Source: a virus. Taken from it: 23,772 nucleotides of DNA. This document shows positions 7,867 through 20,681 of this stretch, one piece after another. Numbering within the stretch: the stretch's first letter is position 1; the number at the start of each line of letters is the position of its first letter. A program made the position numbers and the translations under genes. The stretch lies in the IMG/VR virus record IMGVR_UViG_3300030098_003051, positions 1-23,772 of that record; one strand, 5' to 3'. The notes under the pieces were generated by a model that made no database searches, was not told the DNA's origin, and saw nothing but the letters and a program-made list of their open reading frames with translations.

Positions 7867-9198
7867 TTAGTGGACTTCCGACCAGTTCATTCCTGCCTTC
7901 GACTCAGCAGCAATGGCTACTCGTAAGTTGTAGTATTCACCAGCTTGTGCAGCAGATCTCTCTAATAATTCTTTGAGGTAATCTACGTCTTTCTTTTCAC
8001 ATTCATATTGTAATTCATCATGAACGAATGCAAGTTGGTGAGTAGTTTCTGGTAAGGATTCATGTGTAATTAACATCCAACGTTTTGCTAATACTGCACT
8101 TGAACCTTGGATGAGGTAGTTCAGTGCTTTGTGTTGGCTTTCGACGAGGAGCGTTCGTCCATCAATAGCCAAGATCTTGCCTGTGGAAGACCGCTCCTTA
8201 ACAGCCGATAGAAGTTCTGCCAAACCTGGGATTGCGTTAATGAACGCTTTCCTGACTTCTTTTCCCTTAGCTTTTGCTTTAGCTCTAGATAATTGCTTAT
8301 CAACTGAGAGTCCGATTTTTTCATCACCAGCTCCATATAAAAATGCGTAAGTTACTGTTTTAACTTGCCGACGGGTGATTCCAATTTTATCGGCGTTTGT
8401 TTGGTGAATGTCTCCGTTGAGAAGGATTTCCGCATAGCGTCCTGCATCATATTTTGCAAGATAATGGGATAGTACTCTAAGCTCAACACCGCTAAGGTCA
8501 GCACCGCACATAACCATGTCAGGGGATGCCTTAAATAATTTCCTAAACCTTTCATCTGATGGTACTTGGGCTAAATTTGGTTTTCGATGAGCACATCTAA
8601 ATGTGTTTGTAGCTACTGAGCAGTGATGATGTATTCGACTAGACGTCGTAACAAGCTTCAGCCATGCGTTCACGCCGACTGATATCATCCCTAACTGCTT
8701 CTTCAAATCCAGACAACGTAGAAAACTTAACGCAATATCCGTCCCAATATCCTTGAGAACTATCTCGTCTATTACTGGTTTTTTCGTCTTTAAGCTGATT
8801 GATGTAGGCGTCCAGCCATAGTGTGTTTGTAATATCCATGCAATGTGATCCCTTGATGTGGGATTTAACTCCTTTAGGCGAGTAAATGTGACACCTTCTA
8901 TGTAACCTGCTGTTTGGTTATTTCGTTTAGGAGTAAATTCTGATCCTGCAACGAGAGGGTGCCTGTCTCGAAGTAGTTGAGAAGTTTCTTCCAATTCTTT
9001 TCTGAGATCAGATTCAAGTTCCCATGCAGCTCGTTCATCAAAATACCATCCATGAATTTCTTGTTGTGTAAGTATGTCTGCTACCTTGTGCTCTAACGTA
9101 AGCCATTCAGGTAGGGGTGAAAGTGGTCGCATAATTTTGTAGTTACAGCTACGTCTTGTTCGCAATACATCTGCATTTCCGGTGACCATTCCTGCCAA
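7867..9198 (-). CDS. DNA polymerase, polymerase domain (3' part, frameshifted from 5' part)
   Basis: This is the polymerase domain of a T7 gp5-like family A DNA polymerase. Motif A is visible as GADLSGVELRVLSHYL (catalytic Asp). Motif B, the O helix, is RRQVKTVTYAFLYGAG, and motif C is AFVHDELQYE. The open frame formally starts at 9198, but its first 28 or so codons overlap the exonuclease-domain frame and look non-coding. True homology begins around the SPLPEWLTLEHKVADIL segment. Adding one base in the 4-base C run (plus-strand G 9114-9117) fuses the two frames into one 590-aa polymerase. T7 gp5 is 704 aa. Either the sequence has a one-base deletion or the gene is genuinely split. Confidence 0.93.
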   Translation of the reverse strand: MAGMVTGNADVLRTRRSCNYKIMRPLSPLPEWLTLEHKVADILTQQEIHGWYFDERAAWELESDLRKELEETSQLLRDRHPLVAGSEFTPKRNNQTAGYIEGVTFTRLKELNPTSRDHIAWILQTHYGWTPTSISLKTKKPVIDEIVLKDIGTDIALSFLRCLDLKKQLGMISVGVNAWLKLVTTSSRIHHHCSVATNTFRCAHRKPNLAQVPSDERFRKLFKASPDMVMCGADLSGVELRVLSHYLAKYDAGRYAEILLNGDIHQTNADKIGITRRQVKTVTYAFLYGAGDEKIGLSVDKQLSRAKAKAKGKEVRKAFINAIPGLAELLSAVKERSSTGKILAIDGRTLLVESQHKALNYLIQGSSAVLAKRWMLITHESLPETTHQLAFVHDELQYECEKKDVDYLKELLERSAAQAGEYYNLRVAIAAESKAGMNWSEVH

Positions 9199-9638
9199 TC
9201 AGTAGTCTTTCCAAATTCTCCTTTATATTCAGATATTCGATATCCCCAAGCTTCTAAGCTATGTCTACCGAAAAGTTGAAGAGGCATTAAATCCTGTATC
9301 CCTTCATTTCTTCTTCTTTCCTTACGCTTCCAATCTATTTCTAATAAGTTTGGATGGAATAAACGTGAAAGAAGTAGTGTATCTAGTATCTGTTTAGGAG
9401 GTTTGAAAAATTGATAAAGACTTCGTATACAAGGTAAGTCAAAACCACATATGTTGTGGCCGATAATCCAGTCTGCAACAGCCAAACGAGATAACCCTTC
9501 ATGTATTGGATACTGGTTATTACGTTCATCATTAAATGATTCAATTTTATCTGTTTCACTGTCATATATAGATAGGCAATGTATACGAGTTAAGTCATGT
9601 AGCAATCCATTAGTTTCAAGGTCAAATACGAGCATCAT
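9093..9638 (-). CDS. DNA polymerase, 3'-5' exonuclease domain (5' part)
   Basis: This is the N-terminal proofreading domain of the T7-like DNA polymerase. Exo I is visible as LVFDLETNG (residues 3-11), Exo II as IIGHNICGFDLP and Exo III as YCEQDVAVT. The frame runs out after HPYLNGLR*, where the polymerase frame (-1 relative) takes over. Reading through as CDHFHP then LPEWLTLEH gives a natural junction. The ATG at 9638 overlaps the preceding 55-aa gene. If the split is real the two products would have to associate, but a one-base sequencing or assembly deletion at the homopolymer is the simpler explanation. Confidence 0.93.
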   Translation of the reverse strand: MMLVFDLETNGLLHDLTRIHCLSIYDSETDKIESFNDERNNQYPIHEGLSRLAVADWIIGHNICGFDLPCIRSLYQFFKPPKQILDTLLLSRLFHPNLLEIDWKRKERRRNEGIQDLMPLQLFGRHSLEAWGYRISEYKGEFGKTTDWQEWSPEMQMYCEQDVAVTTKLCDHFHPYLNGLR

Positions 9639-12447: not shown

Positions 12448-14787
12448 TTAACAGAAAAAATAGGTTGATTCGATTACAGACTCAGGCTTCAAGCCTCCTA
12501 TAATCGGTGGTTCAGACTCTGCTCCAATTTGTTTGGCAAAGTCAGTTAGGTAGTCATGCTCGGCAAAGAGATACATATATGTCTCACGTACTATCCTTGA
12601 TAGCTCACACATATCAGTTGCACGACATAAAACTGAATCATGTATAAGAGCTATTGGATTATCAAAATGCAGTGATGATAAGCATAGTAGGCTTGCGTCT
12701 AAGCTATGGATAAGATTCGGAGCTGTTGCAGCCTTATGTCTAGCTTTATCTACTTCATTACTGTTATCAGTCGCAACACGCATGTTGCATTGACCTAATA
12801 CTTTAAGGGTTATGCGTTCAAAGTTCTTCTTAAAGATCTGTTGAGTAACAGTGAATCCAGAAGGAGTTACCCACTCCAATTGAGTGGCTCCCCTTTTAAT
12901 AGCTTTCGATACCTCATCCTCTATCCATTTCATAACAGACATCGGACCAGGTACAACTTGATTCATTGCATCTCTTACAGCTTTAACAGTTTGAGTTAGT
13001 TCATCCTTATCAATATCTATACCTTTCTCTTTGAAAGCTTCTCGAATGTATGATCGATTTGAGAAGGGCTTTGCGTTGTAAGGTATTGTCATTACCGTTC
13101 TCTTCGTACACTTACGATCCCAGTAAGGATGAAGTCTTTCAGGTATATTTGGTGATGATGTTTCAGCTATTACTTTATACGCATCTTGCGGTTTATCACT
13201 AGGTAATACATTAACTAACTTAGCTGTTGAATTATCTTTAGCGAGACCTGCGAGTATTTGTAGACCACTACATGTAGCGTCTATAGCTATAGGTAATCCA
13301 GTACTTACTCTGTCTCTCTTAATAAGACAGTGATAGAACTCATCACAACTAGCTAAGAACTGAAATGGTTCCTCAGCTACTTCCCATTCATGGATATTTC
13401 CTAATGGATCAGTAGCAATTCGACTGATGAGATCTTCATTCTCATATGTCCAATGGATGCGGTCATCTTCAGTAGCTTTATCTAGACCATAAGTTGTAGC
13501 TGCATGGAAACGAATCCAATACTCAGCCTTGTCATCCATAAAAGATTCATCAGCGAATCGAATCAGACTTTTCCCAAAGTCAGTATCTTGAGGCGTTAGA
13601 AATGCAGGGATAGGGTAAACCCGCCCTCTGTAATCAAAGCTCCAGGGTATAAACCATCGCTCCTTATCCTTAAATCTAGCAACCGCTTCCATGGTCATCC
13701 TTGTGCGACAAGAACGTTTAAATTCTTGCGCTTGTTTATTCAAGACCTCTGCTGCATCTCTTCTATATTTCTTACGAGCTATATCATTCTCACCAATATC
13801 AACAGGTTTCGTTGGTAGGTCATGATGAACAATAGGGAGAAATTTACCTACACTGATTTGTCTTTCTTCTAGCTGTTCAGCTACATCAACAATGAACGGA
13901 TTCAGTGTATAGGCTACCTTTTGAATCTTATTTAGAAAGGTAAAAGGCTTTTCTCCCTGTATACGTGACGACTCAGAACGCCTTACCATGTCATGTCCAC
14001 GCATGATCTCATTAAGTAAGTAGCCACCTGGTTTTTCAGGTGACCAATCGTTAGGTTCAATCAACATTGGCCAAGCAAGTGGGCTGAATAACTCAGCGTT
14101 ATGCATGACCTGATCTTTAATCGCTAAGAACTCAGGTGTAGGTACTACATAGTTGACGGTTTTCCTACCTTCTCTCTTAATCTCTGTTGTAAACCATCCA
14201 CTAACTTCTAATAAACAATCAAGTAACCAGCCTCCTAGTTTGACTCGATTACCACGTCCCCAGGTTTTCCACCTCTTAACTTCATAGCGATTCATTAATG
14301 TTTGAATCACTACAACTTTTTGCTGTGTACCTATTGATCTGTGCCAATAGTTTTTCTTTAAAGTTTCTAGTAACCCTGGAGCATGTGTTTCATAATGCCG
14401 GATCTGACATTCAGCCTCAACAGCACTACCTATCGCATCACATACATTGACTAATTGATTACTCTTTTCTTTAAAACTAAAGATCTTATCAATAGCAATT
14501 TTACAAGCGATGGCTGCTGCTGCTTCCGCTTCTAACTCAGCTAAATAAACAGCGATCTCTTTAAAAGATCTACCGTTATACCCTTTATGTATTCGTAAAT
14601 TTGTATCCTTAATACATTGAACAACTAAGGGTAATAAAGTATCAATTGTAGCTATTCCATAGATAGAAGCAGATGAATATTCCTTTTCTTCAAGTTTGCG
14701 TGTGTTGTCTTTTAATCGTTTGAGTCCTTGTCGAACTTGGTCACGCTCAAGCTCGACCTGCTCAGAAATTTGAGCTGGTGTAGCCAT
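12448..14787 (-). CDS. Phage single-subunit DNA-directed RNA polymerase (T7 gp1-like)
   Basis: This enzyme transcribes middle and late phage genes from phage promoters. The 779-aa product is shorter than T7 RNAP (883). Conserved elements in order are SFDYRGRVYPIPAFL (the DxxGR motif), motif A IAIDATCSGLQILAG (catalytic Asp), motif B KRTVMTIPYNAK (catalytic Lys and Tyr) with SNRSYIREAF, and motif C LIHDSV with Asp717, 62 residues from the end. The C-terminus is STYFFC, an aromatic end comparable to T7 FAFA. It follows integrase by 30 bases. A 24-base T7-promoter-like motif lies inside this gene at 13952-13975. An additional CAAGGAC copy lies near the 5' end. Confidence 0.97.
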   Translation of the reverse strand: MATPAQISEQVELERDQVRQGLKRLKDNTRKLEEKEYSSASIYGIATIDTLLPLVVQCIKDTNLRIHKGYNGRSFKEIAVYLAELEAEAAAAIACKIAIDKIFSFKEKSNQLVNVCDAIGSAVEAECQIRHYETHAPGLLETLKKNYWHRSIGTQQKVVVIQTLMNRYEVKRWKTWGRGNRVKLGGWLLDCLLEVSGWFTTEIKREGRKTVNYVVPTPEFLAIKDQVMHNAELFSPLAWPMLIEPNDWSPEKPGGYLLNEIMRGHDMVRRSESSRIQGEKPFTFLNKIQKVAYTLNPFIVDVAEQLEERQISVGKFLPIVHHDLPTKPVDIGENDIARKKYRRDAAEVLNKQAQEFKRSCRTRMTMEAVARFKDKERWFIPWSFDYRGRVYPIPAFLTPQDTDFGKSLIRFADESFMDDKAEYWIRFHAATTYGLDKATEDDRIHWTYENEDLISRIATDPLGNIHEWEVAEEPFQFLASCDEFYHCLIKRDRVSTGLPIAIDATCSGLQILAGLAKDNSTAKLVNVLPSDKPQDAYKVIAETSSPNIPERLHPYWDRKCTKRTVMTIPYNAKPFSNRSYIREAFKEKGIDIDKDELTQTVKAVRDAMNQVVPGPMSVMKWIEDEVSKAIKRGATQLEWVTPSGFTVTQQIFKKNFERITLKVLGQCNMRVATDNSNEVDKARHKAATAPNLIHSLDASLLCLSSLHFDNPIALIHDSVLCRATDMCELSRIVRETYMYLFAEHDYLTDFAKQIGAESEPPIIGGLKPESVIESTYFFC
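13952..13975 (-). promoter_or_regulatory. Candidate T7-like phage RNA polymerase promoter inside the polymerase gene
   Basis: The minus strand reads TGAGTCGTC then ACGTATACAGGGAGA. The last ten bases, TACAGGGAGA, differ from the initiation region of the T7 consensus (TATAGGGAGA) at a single base. Of the 24 bases, 23 recur at 20825-20848 just after the terminase gene, where coding constraint does not apply. Initiation would be at the first G (base 13957) toward the 3' half of the polymerase gene and the replication genes. Confidence 0.5.
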
Positions 14788-14817: not shown

Positions 14818-15684
14818 TTAGAATTGCAGCTGATGAGTGTGCAGTTGTTGGCTTTCATCAGTTGATTTTGCATATCCTAATGTGGTCTTTAAGTTAGTGT
14901 GACCTAGCATATTCATCACGTCAATTGGTGGTGTACCTGACGCCATATGCCATGTCCCAAAACTATATCTAAGAGAGTGAAAGTGATAACCATCCTCTGG
15001 TTTTAATCCTAAGTAATTAGTACATGTGTAGAACACACGTCTTAATTGATCAGCATTCTCCCATTCATCACCAAAGATCTTGACATCAGGTTTAGTGAAC
15101 TCAACTCTTGATTGAAGAATAGGTAGCAATAAAGGATGGATAGGAATAGTCCTAGCTTTACCCCACTTACATTTCTCTAGCTTGAGAATGTTGTGACTAA
15201 AGTCTACCCACTTAGCAGGTAGGTTCAGTATCTCCGATTGACGCATGCCTGTTAGAGCAGCGAATTGGATTACATCAGCAAGATCATCACGCCTCATCTG
15301 CGTCCTTGCGAACTCAAGCATATCTTTCACATGATCTTTAGAAAAGAAAGTACGATTACTCTCTGTTTCTTTGAATCGATGGAAAGGTAATTCATCAAGG
15401 CTAATGTTTACGACCTTCATCTCTTTACAGAATTTAATTACTGTTGAGACGGCAGAGGTGAATCGATTCACAGCAGCGTGTGTCATACCACGTTTCCTTA
15501 ATCGATTACCTAGTTCATACATCAACGGATAGTCAATGTGTTTGATAGGGAAGGAACGTCCTTGAAATTCAGTGAATAACCCTGAGTAATGGAGAGCGGA
15601 CTTCCGTCCGTTTCCAGTCATCCAGGTTTCTCTGTTGTTAATAGTGAAGTCCAAACATGTTCCCCATGTAAGAGCTTTACTCAT
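14818..15684 (-). CDS. int: Tyrosine site-specific integrase
   Basis: This lambda-integrase-family recombinase would insert or excise phage DNA at att sites. The 288-aa product has an N-terminal SAM-like core-binding region and a complete catalytic domain. Visible residues are Arg148 (TGMRQSEIL), a beta-hairpin Lys around 171-176 (KCKWGK), His236-x-x-Arg239 (HSLRYSFGTW), His262 (LGHTN) and nucleophile Tyr271 (TTLGYAKS). All catalytic residues are present, so it appears functional. It precedes RNA polymerase as in P-SSP7-type phages. No tRNA-like attP was found in the short gap downstream. The tRNA-Leu at 19702 is the nearest obvious candidate. Confidence 0.95.
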   Translation of the reverse strand: MSKALTWGTCLDFTINNRETWMTGNGRKSALHYSGLFTEFQGRSFPIKHIDYPLMYELGNRLRKRGMTHAAVNRFTSAVSTVIKFCKEMKVVNISLDELPFHRFKETESNRTFFSKDHVKDMLEFARTQMRRDDLADVIQFAALTGMRQSEILNLPAKWVDFSHNILKLEKCKWGKARTIPIHPLLLPILQSRVEFTKPDVKIFGDEWENADQLRRVFYTCTNYLGLKPEDGYHFHSLRYSFGTWHMASGTPPIDVMNMLGHTNLKTTLGYAKSTDESQQLHTHQLQF

Positions 15685-17566: not shown

Positions 17567-17626
17567 GCGAATCCTTCATCCTGCCTTATGTATACCTTAG
17601 TGTATACATAAAGCAAGAGGAAAGAA
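17567..17626 (-). repeat. Post-stop hairpin repeat, copy C
   Basis: This lies immediately after the stop of the ArdA-like gene. It has the longest stem of the family, TTATGTATAC/GTATACATAA (10 bp, 6-base loop). It sits inside the same frame of flanks as copies A and B (TGATTCTTTCCTC before, GAAGGATTC after, coding strand). The inner stems of the three copies are unrelated in sequence, so structure is conserved rather than sequence. Confidence 0.6.
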
Positions 17627-17968
17627 TCAGAAGTTATTAGTAAAGAATGCATAGCCATTGCTGTACTTAACCATGAAATAATCAAAGGTAAGTGCACGAG
17701 ACCAGACAGCTTCCCAATCAATATGAGCTTGTATAAATATTGGAAGATTGGATTCACTTAAGTAACCGCAATCATCACATAATTGTTCAGCAAACTCAGC
17801 ACCTGATTGATATTGTCCGTAATATGCGTCTTCAAATTGACTAACTGTTTCTATTCCATAGTCCATGAGTTCTTCAACAAACTCATTAGATAATGAATCA
17901 ATCATCCCAGTATTTTCTATCTCTTTCTTGAGAGTTTCAACTGGTGATGATAGAGTAGTTAATGACAT
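17627..17968 (-). CDS. ArdA-like antirestriction protein
   Basis: This 113-aa acidic protein resembles the conserved C-terminal part of ArdA antirestriction proteins. Those mimic B-form DNA and block type I restriction enzymes. The recognisable block is FEDAYYGQYQSGAEFAEQL, followed by a CIDWE-like IDWEAVWSRAL and a final DYF-x(6)-GYAFF segment. Classical ArdA is about 165 aa, so this looks like a shortened form with a divergent N-terminal helical part (about residues 1-45). Expression in the first-transcribed region fits a role in protecting entering DNA. The family assignment is from pattern memory only. Confidence 0.68.
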   Translation of the reverse strand: MSLTTLSSPVETLKKEIENTGMIDSLSNEFVEELMDYGIETVSQFEDAYYGQYQSGAEFAEQLCDDCGYLSESNLPIFIQAHIDWEAVWSRALTFDYFMVKYSNGYAFFTNNF

Positions 17969-17983
17969 GATTAAACATAGACT

Positions 17984-17996
17984 CTCTCAGTGAGAG
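17984..17996 (-). other. Short intergenic hairpin before tRNA-Asp
   Basis: CTCTC and GAGAG face each other across a 3-base loop in the gap between the ArdA-like gene start and tRNA-Asp. It is the same kind of small stem as others in this region and has no T-run. It might help process the tRNA 3' end from the transcript. Confidence 0.35.
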
Positions 17997-18000
17997 CCAA

Positions 18001-18072
18001 CGGTCCATGCGGGAATCGAACCCGCATATCCAGCGTGACAAGCTGACGTACTAACCGTTATACGAATGGACC
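18001..18072 (-). tRNA. tRNA-Asp (GUC)
   Basis: On the minus strand this 72-base sequence folds as a complete cloverleaf. The acceptor is GGTCCAT/ATGGACC and the D stem is CGTA/TACG with a GG-containing loop. The anticodon stem TCAGC/GCTGG carries loop TTGTCAC (anticodon GTC), and the T stem GCGGG/CCCGC has loop TTCGATT. The discriminator base is G, as in tRNA-Asp. CCA is not encoded, so the host would add it. The variable loop is short (4 bases). It lies in the middle of the early gene cluster and is co-oriented with it. Confidence 0.9.
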
Positions 18073-18076
18073 AAGA

Positions 18077-18097: not shown

Positions 18098-18343
18098 TTA
18101 TACAAATGAAGGGAGTTCTACTCGTGAACGACTAGCGTTTACACAGTTATTATTAATCCAGAATCCAAGGGATACATCAGGATTAAATAATACATTAGCA
18201 ATAGCTCTCTTGCTTACGTTTCCATACTCGTATGTATCACCACCTTTGAAGGTAGCTATTACTTTTTGTGCTAATAAATCTACACTAAGTGATTCAATAG
18301 CAGCAGATGTACGAGCTGGAACGTCAATAAACATGTTGAACAT
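18098..18343 (-). CDS. KTSC-domain-like small protein
   Basis: This 81-aa protein has the pattern of the small KTSC domain found alone in phage and bacterial proteins. It contains a Ser-rich start (SAAIESLSVDL), a strand pair (QKVIATFKGGDTYEYGNV), then VLFNPDVSLGFWINNN. The function of the family is unknown. The catalytic-looking features are few, so it may be an RNA- or protein-binding module. It begins at the ATG at 18343, with an alternative ATG at 18334. Confidence 0.65.
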   Translation of the reverse strand: MFNMFIDVPARTSAAIESLSVDLLAQKVIATFKGGDTYEYGNVSKRAIANVLFNPDVSLGFWINNNCVNASRSRVELPSFV

Positions 18344-18362: not shown

Positions 18363-18379
18363 TGGGATGTAATATCCCA
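18363..18379 (-). other. Short hairpin downstream of tRNA-like minihelix 2
   Basis: TGGGAT/ATCCCA (6 bp, 5-base loop) immediately follows the tRNA-like element at 18382-18421 and precedes the KTSC-like gene. It has no T-run. Confidence 0.38.
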
Positions 18380-18381
18380 AT

Positions 18382-18421
18382 GTCTGGGTAGGGAATTGAA
18401 CCCTACCTACACCAATCAGAC
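18382..18421 (-). ncRNA. tRNA-like minihelix 2 (T-arm plus closing stem)
   Basis: The minus strand forms GTCTG...CAGAC (5 bp) enclosing a T-arm, GGTAGGG/CCCTACC, with the canonical 7-base loop TTCAATT. There is no D arm and no anticodon arm, only an 11-base linker. It overlaps the stop codon of the preceding 18416-18748 gene. It could be a processing signal, a degenerate tRNA or an att-like tRNA remnant. Confidence 0.42.
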
Positions 18422-18748
18422 TAATAACCATCCATCAGGAAATTCGTATGTGTCAGACATACCAGTAGCGTTATCAGTTTGTTTAACAAACCAATCAAAG
18501 TTCTTCTGATAAATACAAGACAACCCACCAAGATAATGCTTAACTAATGCGTTAAGTCTTGACTTAGTTGTTACTGTTTTCCATCCGCAATGATTAATGA
18601 AGAGTTGTCCTTTCTCAATGGATGCAATCTTGTTATCATGTAGATAAATAGATTGGACATCGCCCTCGTCCTTGACGCGAGTGTTTGCCTTGCTCCATGA
18701 GCGACCATCAATGATTGCTTGAATCATTTCTCTTTCAATCTTTCGCAT
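18416..18748 (-). CDS. Early protein of a common phage family, function unknown
   Basis: This 110-aa protein from the ATG at 18748 starts MRKIEREMIQAIIDGRSW, has YLHDNKIASIEKGQLFINHC in the middle, and carries WKTVTTKSRLNALVKHYLGG. The arrangement Lys-Ile-Glu start, LH-x-N-x-IA, and TTKSRLNAL recurs in many small phage and cyanophage proteins that I recall as uncharacterised. The predicted fold is a small alpha/beta domain. A TTG at 18790 would extend it but falls inside an intergenic hairpin. The 3' end overlaps the tRNA-like minihelix. Confidence 0.7.
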   Translation of the reverse strand: MRKIEREMIQAIIDGRSWSKANTRVKDEGDVQSIYLHDNKIASIEKGQLFINHCGWKTVTTKSRLNALVKHYLGGLSCIYQKNFDWFVKQTDNATGMSDTYEFPDGWLLV

Positions 18749-18772
18749 GTTGTTAATGAACGAGTGTAAATT

Positions 18773-18815
18773 TGAGATATAAAATCTCAATGAAAGAGTG
18801 AGGCTTCGAGCCTCA
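18773..18815 (-). other. Double intergenic hairpin
   Basis: Two adjacent stems lie between the 70-aa early gene and the next one: TGAGAT/ATCTCA (5-base loop) and TGAGGCT/AGCCTCA (3-base loop). The second closely follows the upstream stop codon. There is no T-run, so processing or mRNA protection is likelier than termination. Confidence 0.45.
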
Positions 18816-18823
18816 GCATCACG

Positions 18824-19036
18824 CTATACTTGATACTCTTCCCAGTATTCCTGAAGTAACTCAGGATCTGTGATCTCTTGAGTGAGATCCTCTACATAAG
18901 TATGAGATCCAAGACCTGAGCTTGTATAAGCCCAGTCTTTCTCTAGTATATCGAGTACTAACTGAGAGCAGTTAGGTGATACTAAAGCAACAGGATTCTC
19001 ACAGCCTTGTGGAGTGAATGGAACTAGTTTGTTCAT
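18824..19036 (-). CDS. First early protein, unknown function
   Basis: This 70-aa acidic protein is the first complete gene after the putative early promoter. It runs MNKLVPFTPQGCENPVALV, then SQLVLDILEKDWAYTSSGLG, then a Glu-rich tail (DPELLQEYWEEYQV). No family is recognised. The strongly acidic tail and first-expressed position resemble small host-takeover proteins in other podoviruses, which is inference only. I used the ATG at 19036. An in-frame TTG at 19054 lies next to the tRNA-like element. Confidence 0.62.
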   Translation of the reverse strand: MNKLVPFTPQGCENPVALVSPNCSQLVLDILEKDWAYTSSGLGSHTYVEDLTQEITDPELLQEYWEEYQV

Positions 19037-19054
19037 AATAAATAAAGTAAACAA

Positions 19055-19103
19055 AACCCAGTCAAGGACTCGAACCTCGATGAACGCCGGTGCATTCTGG
19101 GTT
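19055..19103 (-). ncRNA. tRNA-like minihelix 1 (acceptor plus T-arm)
   Basis: The minus strand reads AACCCAG...CTGGGTT (7-bp closing stem) around a T-arm CGAGG/CCTTG (one G-T pair) with the canonical loop TTCGAGT. Only about 16 bases stand where D and anticodon arms should be, so it is not a normal tRNA. A competing stem ATGAAC/GTTCAT is possible. It sits in the early leader, 18 bases before the first ATG. tmRNA, a decayed tRNA or an attP remnant are alternatives. Confidence 0.42.
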
Positions 19104-19701: not shown

Positions 19702-19787
19702 GGGAGTGTGGCGGAATTGGTAGACGCACATGACTTAAAATCATGAGTTCATTAATGAACGTGGGGGTTCAAGTCCCCCCATTCCCA
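19702..19787 (+). tRNA. tRNA-Leu (UAA)
   Basis: This 86-base class II tRNA lies on the plus strand, opposite to all protein genes. The acceptor is GGGAGTG/CATTCCC with discriminator A. The anticodon stem CATGA/TCATG has loop CTTAAAA (anticodon TAA). The long variable arm TTCAT/ATGAA and the T stem GGGGG/CCCCC with loop TTCAAGT complete it. No CCA is encoded. tRNA-Leu is a reported attachment target in P-SSP7, so this could be a working tRNA, an attP, or both. Confidence 0.93.
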
Positions 19788-19848
19788 CTTCTTCTTCCAT
19801 TTCTTAAGTATTTTCTGAGCTTTCTTTCTATTAAGCGCTTTTTCCGCT

Positions 19849-20517
19849 TTAATTATCAGTTTTAACTGTTTTAACTGTTGCTTCATCCCAATCTGTATTA
19901 AATTTCTCAATTCCTGCAGTCGTTAAGACGTGATCAGTCATTTTATCGAAGACATCAACAGGAACAGTACATATATCAGCACCTTGTCCAAAAGAGTTCT
20001 CTACAGACTGAACATCCCTCAAAGACGCAGCTAAAACCTTAGTTTTTATTGATTTTAAATTGTATAAATGACTAATTGCACCAACTAGACCAATTCCATC
20101 AACAGAATTATCGTTTAACCTTCCAACAAAGGGAGAAACGTAGGTAGCACCTGCCATTGCACACAATATTGCTTGACTTACGCTAAAAACAAGAGTCATA
20201 TTCACTCTTATCTGTATATCTGATAATCTTTTACAAGCTTTCAGTCCATCAACAGTACAAGGAAGTTTAATTGTACAAGGTTCGTTATAAGTCCGATAGT
20301 GTTCAACACCATAACGAAAGAAGTCAGCCTCATTATCAGCTACCATTTCCATACTGATATCAGGTATACCCATATCTACTAATTCTTTGTAGACATCTTG
20401 GGGATTCCTCGAGCTCTTTTTAATAAGGGTAGGGTTAGTTGTTACACCAGAAATAAAACCAGATGAGAGCCTCTGCTCTATCTGTTGCACATCTGCTGTA
20501 TCTAAGAATAGTTGCAT
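19849..20517 (-). CDS. talC: Transaldolase-like protein (TalC/FSA type)
   Basis: This cyanophage transaldolase probably boosts the host pentose phosphate pathway, giving NADPH and ribose-5-phosphate for dNTPs. The 222-aa product is the short TalC/fructose-6-phosphate-aldolase type rather than the long host Tal. Visible features are LFLDTADVQQIEQ at the N-terminus, SGVTTNPTLIKK, the Schiff-base Lys84 (TIKLPCTVDGLKACK), RVNMTLVFSVSQA, ATYVSPFVGRLND and KVLAASLRDV. All expected active-site motifs are intact. It is the last protein gene before the genome-end region. The 49-aa membrane gene stops 1 base before its start. Confidence 0.97.
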   Translation of the reverse strand: MQLFLDTADVQQIEQRLSSGFISGVTTNPTLIKKSSRNPQDVYKELVDMGIPDISMEMVADNEADFFRYGVEHYRTYNEPCTIKLPCTVDGLKACKRLSDIQIRVNMTLVFSVSQAILCAMAGATYVSPFVGRLNDNSVDGIGLVGAISHLYNLKSIKTKVLAASLRDVQSVENSFGQGADICTVPVDVFDKMTDHVLTTAGIEKFNTDWDEATVKTVKTDN

Positions 20518-20518
20518 A

Positions 20519-20668
20519 TTAAGTCAGTGATAATTTTAAAGCTTCTGCTAACGATCTATAACTAGTAGCTACATATATCTGTCCTAACACTACAGCTACA
20601 GTAGCCATAGACCAAAAGACATAATACCAATGAGACTTAATCTGTTTAGGTTGAGTGGGTAGAGTCAT
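20519..20668 (-). CDS. Small single-pass membrane protein
   Basis: This 49-aa frame starts MTLPTQPKQIKSHWYYVFWS, has a hydrophobic segment of about 20 residues (WSMATVAVVLGQIYVATSY), and ends with a short amphipathic helix (SLAEALKLSLT). It sits between terminase and talC and ends one base before the talC start, so the two are probably translated together. No Shine-Dalgarno is visible; the upstream bases are TATATATAAT. A holin-like or membrane-adaptor role is possible but unproven. Confidence 0.62.
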   Translation of the reverse strand: MTLPTQPKQIKSHWYYVFWSMATVAVVLGQIYVATSYRSLAEALKLSLT

Positions 20669-20681
20669 ATATTATATATAG

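Follow-up and report, generated by a model that had tools for sequence, protein, structure and literature searches.

Miniature tRNA mimics at the gene boundaries of marine cyanophages and their likely role as punctuation of the viral transcript

Viruses of the ocean's commonest photosynthetic bacteria place tiny, stripped-down copies of transfer RNA between their genes, most likely so that the tRNA-trimming enzymes of the host cut the long viral message into separate pieces. We recognized these elements in the window, by which we mean the whole 23,772-nucleotide stretch analyzed here (IMG/VR record IMGVR_UViG_3300030098_003051), which is a contig of a marine T7-like cyanophage. Its minus strand carries psbA and ribonucleotide reductase genes, an RNA polymerase gene (12448-14787), an integrase gene (14818-15684) and then small early genes up to about position 19054, with talC and terminase lying beyond. 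The closest RNA polymerases are those of S-CBP1 and other cyanopodoviruses (68–70% identity). The DNA polymerase is split into an exonuclease and a polymerase reading frame that overlap (7867-9198 and 9093-9638, minus strand), as annotated for P-SSP7 and S-TIP37, which suggests a possible programmed frameshift. The elements belong to a large conserved RNA family that has no match in Rfam and of which we found no description in the open-licence literature.

tRNA-like elements in the early operon

An earlier note on this sequence had reported two minihelices consisting of an acceptor stem and a T-arm only, at 19055-19103 and 18382-18421, with a true tRNA-Asp in the same operon. The observation was confirmed: both elements are present at exactly these positions on the minus (early-gene) strand, RNA folding returned the described structures as the minimum free energy folds (−15.1 kcal/mol, z −2.3, for 18382-18421 and −18.2 kcal/mol, z −2.4, for 19055-19103), and two such minihelices in the 1.8 kb early region compare with 0.002 expected from dinucleotide shuffles. 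The tRNA-Asp was confirmed as well. However, four points required correction or addition. First, 19055-19103 does not lack a D-arm, because its 16-nt linker folds as a D-arm-like hairpin with covariation in relatives; only the anticodon arm is missing. Second, 18382-18421 has a 5-bp acceptor stem plus a 7-bp T-stem, 12 bp in all, which is the tRNA total. Third, an additional element at 18792-18842 had been missed. Fourth, a small hairpin follows 18792-18842, 18382-18421 and the tRNA-Asp.

The leader element (19055-19103, minus strand), immediately before the first early gene, reads AACCCAG AAUGCACCGGCGUUCA UCGAGG UUCGAGU CCUUGA CUGGGUU. It is a three-way junction in which the acceptor AACCCAG/CUGGGUU is combined with a D-arm-like hairpin (GAAUGC-ACCG-GCGUUC; loop ACCGG) and a T-arm with loop UUCGAGU. 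A covariance model, R1, which was built with this element among its sequences, scored it at 62.2 bits (E 1.7e-16). The first early gene (18824-19036, minus strand; about 70 codons from ATG) has no family match, and its stop codon lies inside the next element. This second element (18792-18842, minus strand) has a 7-bp acceptor (GGAAGAG/CUCUUUC), a 5-bp T-stem (UGAGG/CCUCA), a 20-nt linker without GG and a degenerate T-loop, CUCGAAG, that has lost U54, whereas relatives have UUCGAAA or UUCGAAG. It is directly followed by a small hairpin (18772-18790, minus strand; UUGAGAU-UUUAU-AUCUCAA; z −4.1).

The second early gene (18416-18748, minus strand) belongs to Pfam PF23790, Kyano_Gp96 (function unknown), and its stop codon, UGA, is nt 4–6 of the third element. 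The latter (18382-18421, minus strand) reads GUCUG AUUGGUGUA GGUAGGG UUCAAUU CCCUACC CAGAC, in which the acceptor GUCUG/CAGAC and the T-stem GGUAGGG/CCCUACC enclose the T-loop UUCAAUU, the linker AUUGGUGUA contains a D-loop-like GGU, and the discriminator is A. A small hairpin (18363-18379, minus strand; UGGGAU-AUUAC-AUCCCA) starts 2 nt after this discriminator. The third early gene (18098-18343, minus strand) encodes 81 aa of phrog_7365, of unknown function. The fourth boundary holds a complete tRNA-Asp(GUC) (18000-18073, minus strand), which we treat as the full-length member of the series, and this tRNA is directly followed by a hairpin of the same kind as that after minihelices in relatives (17980-17998, minus strand; GGCUCUC-ACUGA-GAGAGUC). 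The fourth early gene (17627-17968, minus strand) encodes an ArdA-like antirestriction protein (PF07275). Thus, each of the first four early gene boundaries carries a tRNA or a tRNA mimic, and small hairpins follow three of the four. Between the ArdA-like gene and the next early gene there is a long imperfect hairpin (17569-17628, minus strand), which was picked up weakly by microRNA-precursor models only for its stem and could be an RNase III site or a terminator.

Searches against Rfam at gathering and relaxed thresholds gave no match to the elements. Only 18001-18072 and 19702-19787 reached the gathering score of the tRNA family (RF00005), and the elements were not listed even at E up to 10. 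The family of mascRNA-menRNA (RF01684) gave only a sub-threshold match to the complete tRNA-Leu (E 0.4). The elements have no anticodon arm; the linker is 8–20 nt long and forms only a D-arm-like hairpin or none. On the other hand, they do have the 12-bp acceptor/T helix, the T-loop UUCRANY and the G53-C61 equivalent of tRNA.

Conservation, covariation and distribution of the family

Relatives were collected by homology to the 124-aa gene and by DNA patterns; about 15 of 40 hits in one pattern search were chance and were removed by structure. After the 124-aa gene, all 11 relatives whose contig continues carry the element. Because these orthologs were chosen by gene homology and not by pairing, they control, together with the shuffles, for the bias of scanner-selected elements towards pairing. 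In this set the T-stems GGUGAGG, GGUAGGG, GCAAGGG and CCAGAGG are each matched by their complement, 5 of 7 T-stem pairs are changed on both sides, and 100% of the cells are paired. A MAFFT alignment mis-aligned the 5′ strands of some rows, and linker-stripped helices and the ortholog set were therefore used. Across 32 linker-stripped helices, 11 of 12 pairs show compensatory change, and the same proportion was found for 22 helices of a second class with T-loop UGCRA. The class with a D-arm has 11 of 15 compensated pairs, including the D-arm. The equivalent of G53-C61 is nearly invariant. Covariance models built from one class find the other; for example, the D-arm model detects 43088-43129 of L069 (the sequences of the comparison set are designated by L numbers) at E 1.7e-7. 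A further model, R3, captured only the T-arm and was excluded, and a D-arm DNA pattern scan of viral contigs gave only two known loci.

The total length of the acceptor and T helix is most often exactly 12 bp (45 distinct elements, compared with 12 elements with 13 bp and 6 with 11 bp), although the split is 5+7, 6+6 or 7+5. A reversed-sequence null never exceeded 11 bp. Twelve base pairs is the acceptor plus T length of tRNA, which is measured by tRNA-end enzymes. The T-loop is U(U/G)CRA, and its type covaries with the D-loop mimic. UUC-type elements carry GG in 92% of linkers. Among distinct D-arm loops, 9 of 9 with a UUC T-loop end in GG and 13 of 13 with a UGC T-loop end in AG (Fisher p 2e-6). 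This classification was made by hand, because an automatic parse closed loops with G-U pairs and blurred the GG/AG contrast, and two of the 13 UGC loops are from S-SBP1. Both types occur within single genomes, P-SSP7 among them. This pattern is what docking of D-loop nucleotides 18–19 into T-loop positions 55–56 would produce, although the contact itself is inferred. The exception is the 20-nt-linker family of element 18792-18842.

In nine named cyanopodoviruses scanned whole (P-SSP7, P-SSP2, P-GSP1, P-SSP10, 9515-10a, NATL2A-133, NATL1A-7, Syn5 and S-SBP1) and the window, 18 elements were found against 0.1 expected from shuffles, and all nine genomes carry them. S-RIP2 and S-TIP37 also carry them. 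By the annotation tables, all lie in intergenic gaps on the coding strand or overlap only the end of the upstream gene. Related elements also occur in dozens of viral contigs, although many contigs are fragments and some loci are redundant. A second conserved place is upstream of the major capsid gene in P-SSP7, P-SSP2, P-GSP1, Syn5 and S-SBP1 (L070, which is P-SSP7, 20632-20678; L220 27142-27188; L221 40166-40214; L223, which is Syn5, 19842-19882; L224 19299-19344), where NATL1A-7 has a complete tRNA-Gly(UCC) (L068 3479-3549). No such element was found in T7 or in pelagiphage HTVC019P, and strict scans of the early regions fetched for S-CBP1, S-RIP1, S-CBP4, DSL-LC07 and two uncultured relatives also gave none.

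Several contigs of 55–80 kb, not identified as T7-like, carry three or four elements in a row (L036, L190). In L036 (4535-5381), L190, L205 and L207, contigs of 45–80 kb, each of several elements in a row is followed by a hairpin such as GCCAC..GUGGC; an HNH endonuclease (phrog_16315) was found in these viruses. An extra minihelix, AGCUAG..CUAGCU, with a D-arm occurs at another early boundary of three relatives (L011 6698-6743, L046 8480-8525 and L058 1750-1795), in L046 and L058 near a tRNA-Asp as well. Leader elements of intermediate size (about 57–60 nt) in L007 (5140-5196), L002 (5355 region) and L012 (5320 region) have an extra hairpin besides the T-arm and form a bridge between the minihelix and the full tRNA.

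The upstream stop codon is usually near or inside the element, most often at nt 4–6, and the next ATG usually follows 32–43 nt after the element. In 42 of 50 elements a hairpin starts 1–3 nt after the discriminator, against 13% in shuffles, and 8 of 10 tRNA-Asp genes are followed by the same kind of hairpin. Leader elements such as 19055-19103 and P-SSP7 603-647 have no downstream hairpin. The hairpins after the elements in L033, L034, L035, L066, L069 and L071 and those after tRNA-Asp share the pentaloop ACUGA or AAUGA closed by C-G, although their stems differ.

Predicted processing of the transcript and alternative explanations

We propose that the elements are miniature tRNA mimics that mark cleavage sites in the polycistronic, mainly early, transcript of the phage. 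In this model, each folds into a 12-bp coaxial acceptor/T helix capped by a T-loop, and the short linker or D-arm docks a D-loop mimic into the T-loop to form a tRNA-like elbow that would be read by host tRNA-maturation enzymes. RNase Z would cut just after the discriminator, leaving the downstream message with a hairpin 0–3 nt from its new 5′ end, likely protective against RNase E. In E. coli, 5′-terminal stem-loops are reported to stabilize messages and to hinder RNase E (Emory, Bouvet and Belasco 1992; Bouvet and Belasco 1992; both cited in PMC3997798), and host RNase E rises during P-SSP7 infection (PMC9692554). RNase P may cut before nucleotide 1. The structure (by folding and covariation), the conservation, the placement, the presence of complete tRNAs at equivalent places, and the presence of RNase Z genes (8 of 10) and RNase P RNA (8 of 10) in host-group genomes are demonstrated by the analysis, whereas cleavage, the identity of the enzyme, and the effect on RNA stability are inferred from sequence. 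We consider this mechanism the most likely one, with good but not full confidence.

The interpretation in the earlier note, that the early transcript may be punctuated by tRNA mimics that recruit host processing enzymes such as RNase P, is partly supported. The punctuation-like placement of tRNA mimics is supported by the compensatory changes, the fixed 12-bp helix, the T-loop/D-loop covariation, the intergenic sense-strand placement and the complete tRNAs at equivalent boundaries. Cleavage remains an inference, and RNase P specifically is uncertain, because in about half of the elements the stop codon of the upstream gene lies within the first 10 nt, inside the acceptor strand, so that a cut at the 5′ end would leave that message without a stop. 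In addition, N−1 is mostly A or C and not the U that many RNase P enzymes prefer. RNase P cleavage at the 5′ border nevertheless remains plausible, since Synechocystis RNase P RNA does not need a 3′ CCA (PMC4565877), and these elements encode none. RNase Z cleavage at the 3′ side fits the anatomy better. A more far-reaching possibility, which we regard as tentative, is that the phages use RNase Z and not RNase P to make polycistronic messages monocistronic. Each upstream mRNA would keep its stop codon inside the acceptor strand and end in a tRNA-like 3′ cap, possibly CCA-tailed, while each downstream mRNA would start with a protective hairpin, and translation termination, which opens the acceptor stem, would gate processing. 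This would be a mode of viral mRNA end formation that, to our knowledge, is not known in any other DNA virus.

The best-surviving alternative, although unlikely, is that the elements act in cis without being cut, so that a tRNA-like fold at the 3′ end of each gene stabilizes the message or tunes termination and reinitiation, perhaps by binding a T-loop-recognizing host protein. The stop codon at nt 4–6 in many cases and the start codon about 32–43 nt downstream suggest coupling with translation termination, and the evidence for cleavage is only indirect. However, the 12-bp ruler and the discriminator-like A are measures used by tRNA-end-processing enzymes, the hairpin starts 1–3 nt after the expected RNase Z site, and complete tRNAs, which are processed, occupy equivalent sites. 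Still less likely is that the excised 39–50 nt RNAs act in trans, for example as decoys for tRNA-targeting defense nucleases or as sponges for tRNA enzymes. They would be released as stable tRNA-like RNAs, like mammalian mascRNA (PMC4919922), and the early operon carries the ArdA-like counter-defense gene. On the other hand, they have no anticodon arm for anticodon nucleases, acceptor sequences differ between elements of one genome, and this model leaves the tight intergenic cis placement and the downstream hairpin unexplained.

Plain RNase III hairpins or intrinsic terminators, as in T7, are very unlikely: although the elements lie in the same kind of genomic place, between early genes, the conserved T-loop, the D-loop mimic and the 12-bp limit are not needed by RNase III, there is no U-tract after the helix, and T7 itself has no such element. 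Old attachment sites or decaying tRNA genes, which the earlier note had raised as alternatives and whose signatures it had named as refuting outcomes, are rejected. An integrase gene and a full tRNA-Leu(UAA) are in the same region; the latter (19702-19788, plus strand) lies on the strand opposite to the phage genes, between talC and the early leader, is 83% identical over its length to tRNA genes in several Prochlorococcus genomes, and is a candidate attP for the integrase. However, the stems do not decay without compensation, and the 22-nt 3′ end of element 18382-18421 has no exact match in 84,980 prokaryote species genomes. In addition, the short-class covariance model, R2, gave no match in 201 genomes of the Prochlorococcus family, in a search with stricter filters and no positive control, and model R1 gave only weak, mostly T-arm-length hits in host genomes, presumably tRNAs.

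Relation to known systems and significance

The principle of tRNA-like elements read by RNase P and RNase Z is known from mascRNA and from tRNA punctuation of organelle transcripts, whereas its proposed use as a repeated, miniaturized punctuation system in a DNA phage appears to be new. The tRNA-like 3′ elements of mammalian MALAT1 and MENbeta RNAs (mascRNA and menRNA) have an acceptor stem, a small D-arm and a T-arm with a reduced or missing anticodon arm and are cut by RNase P and RNase Z (PMC4919922). The same architecture was found in 19055-19103 and the D-arm class, but the short class has no D-arm stem. Those elements occur once per transcript in mammalian long noncoding RNAs, whereas the elements of 39–50 nt described here occur several per genome between protein genes of a dsDNA phage. 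In organelles, tRNAs between genes release mRNAs when excised, but there the punctuation marks are real tRNAs, while here they are mostly stripped mimics that cannot decode, mixed with one real tRNA. The RNase III sites of coliphage T7 are likewise processing signals between early genes of a T7-like phage, with a different fold and presumably a different enzyme. Phage RNAs cleaved by RNase P include phage-induced regulatory RNAs (cited in PMC4919922). The C4 RNA of P1/P7 is another example. These are phage transcripts carrying a structure read by host RNase P, but they are single RNAs and not a repeated T-loop-bearing module at gene boundaries. Finally, the 3′ tRNA-like structures of plant RNA viruses also mimic tRNA with an acceptor/T-arm-like helix, but they are genomic 3′ ends that are aminoacylated, whereas the present elements are internal, belong to a DNA virus and have no CCA.

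Standard tRNA and Rfam searches miss these elements. They are also putative natural minimal substrates that would show, by covariation, which parts of tRNA the processing enzymes need, including a linked T-loop U55-to-G and D-loop G18-to-A change. Cyanopodoviruses such as P-SSP7 and Syn5 are model viruses of very abundant phototrophs, and a conserved family of 39–50 nt tRNA mimics in all nine genomes scanned gives a testable answer to the question of how their gene-dense transcripts are processed, and a possible convergent replacement for the RNase III sites of T7. This finding bears on how phage messages survive in a host whose RNase E rises during P-SSP7 infection.
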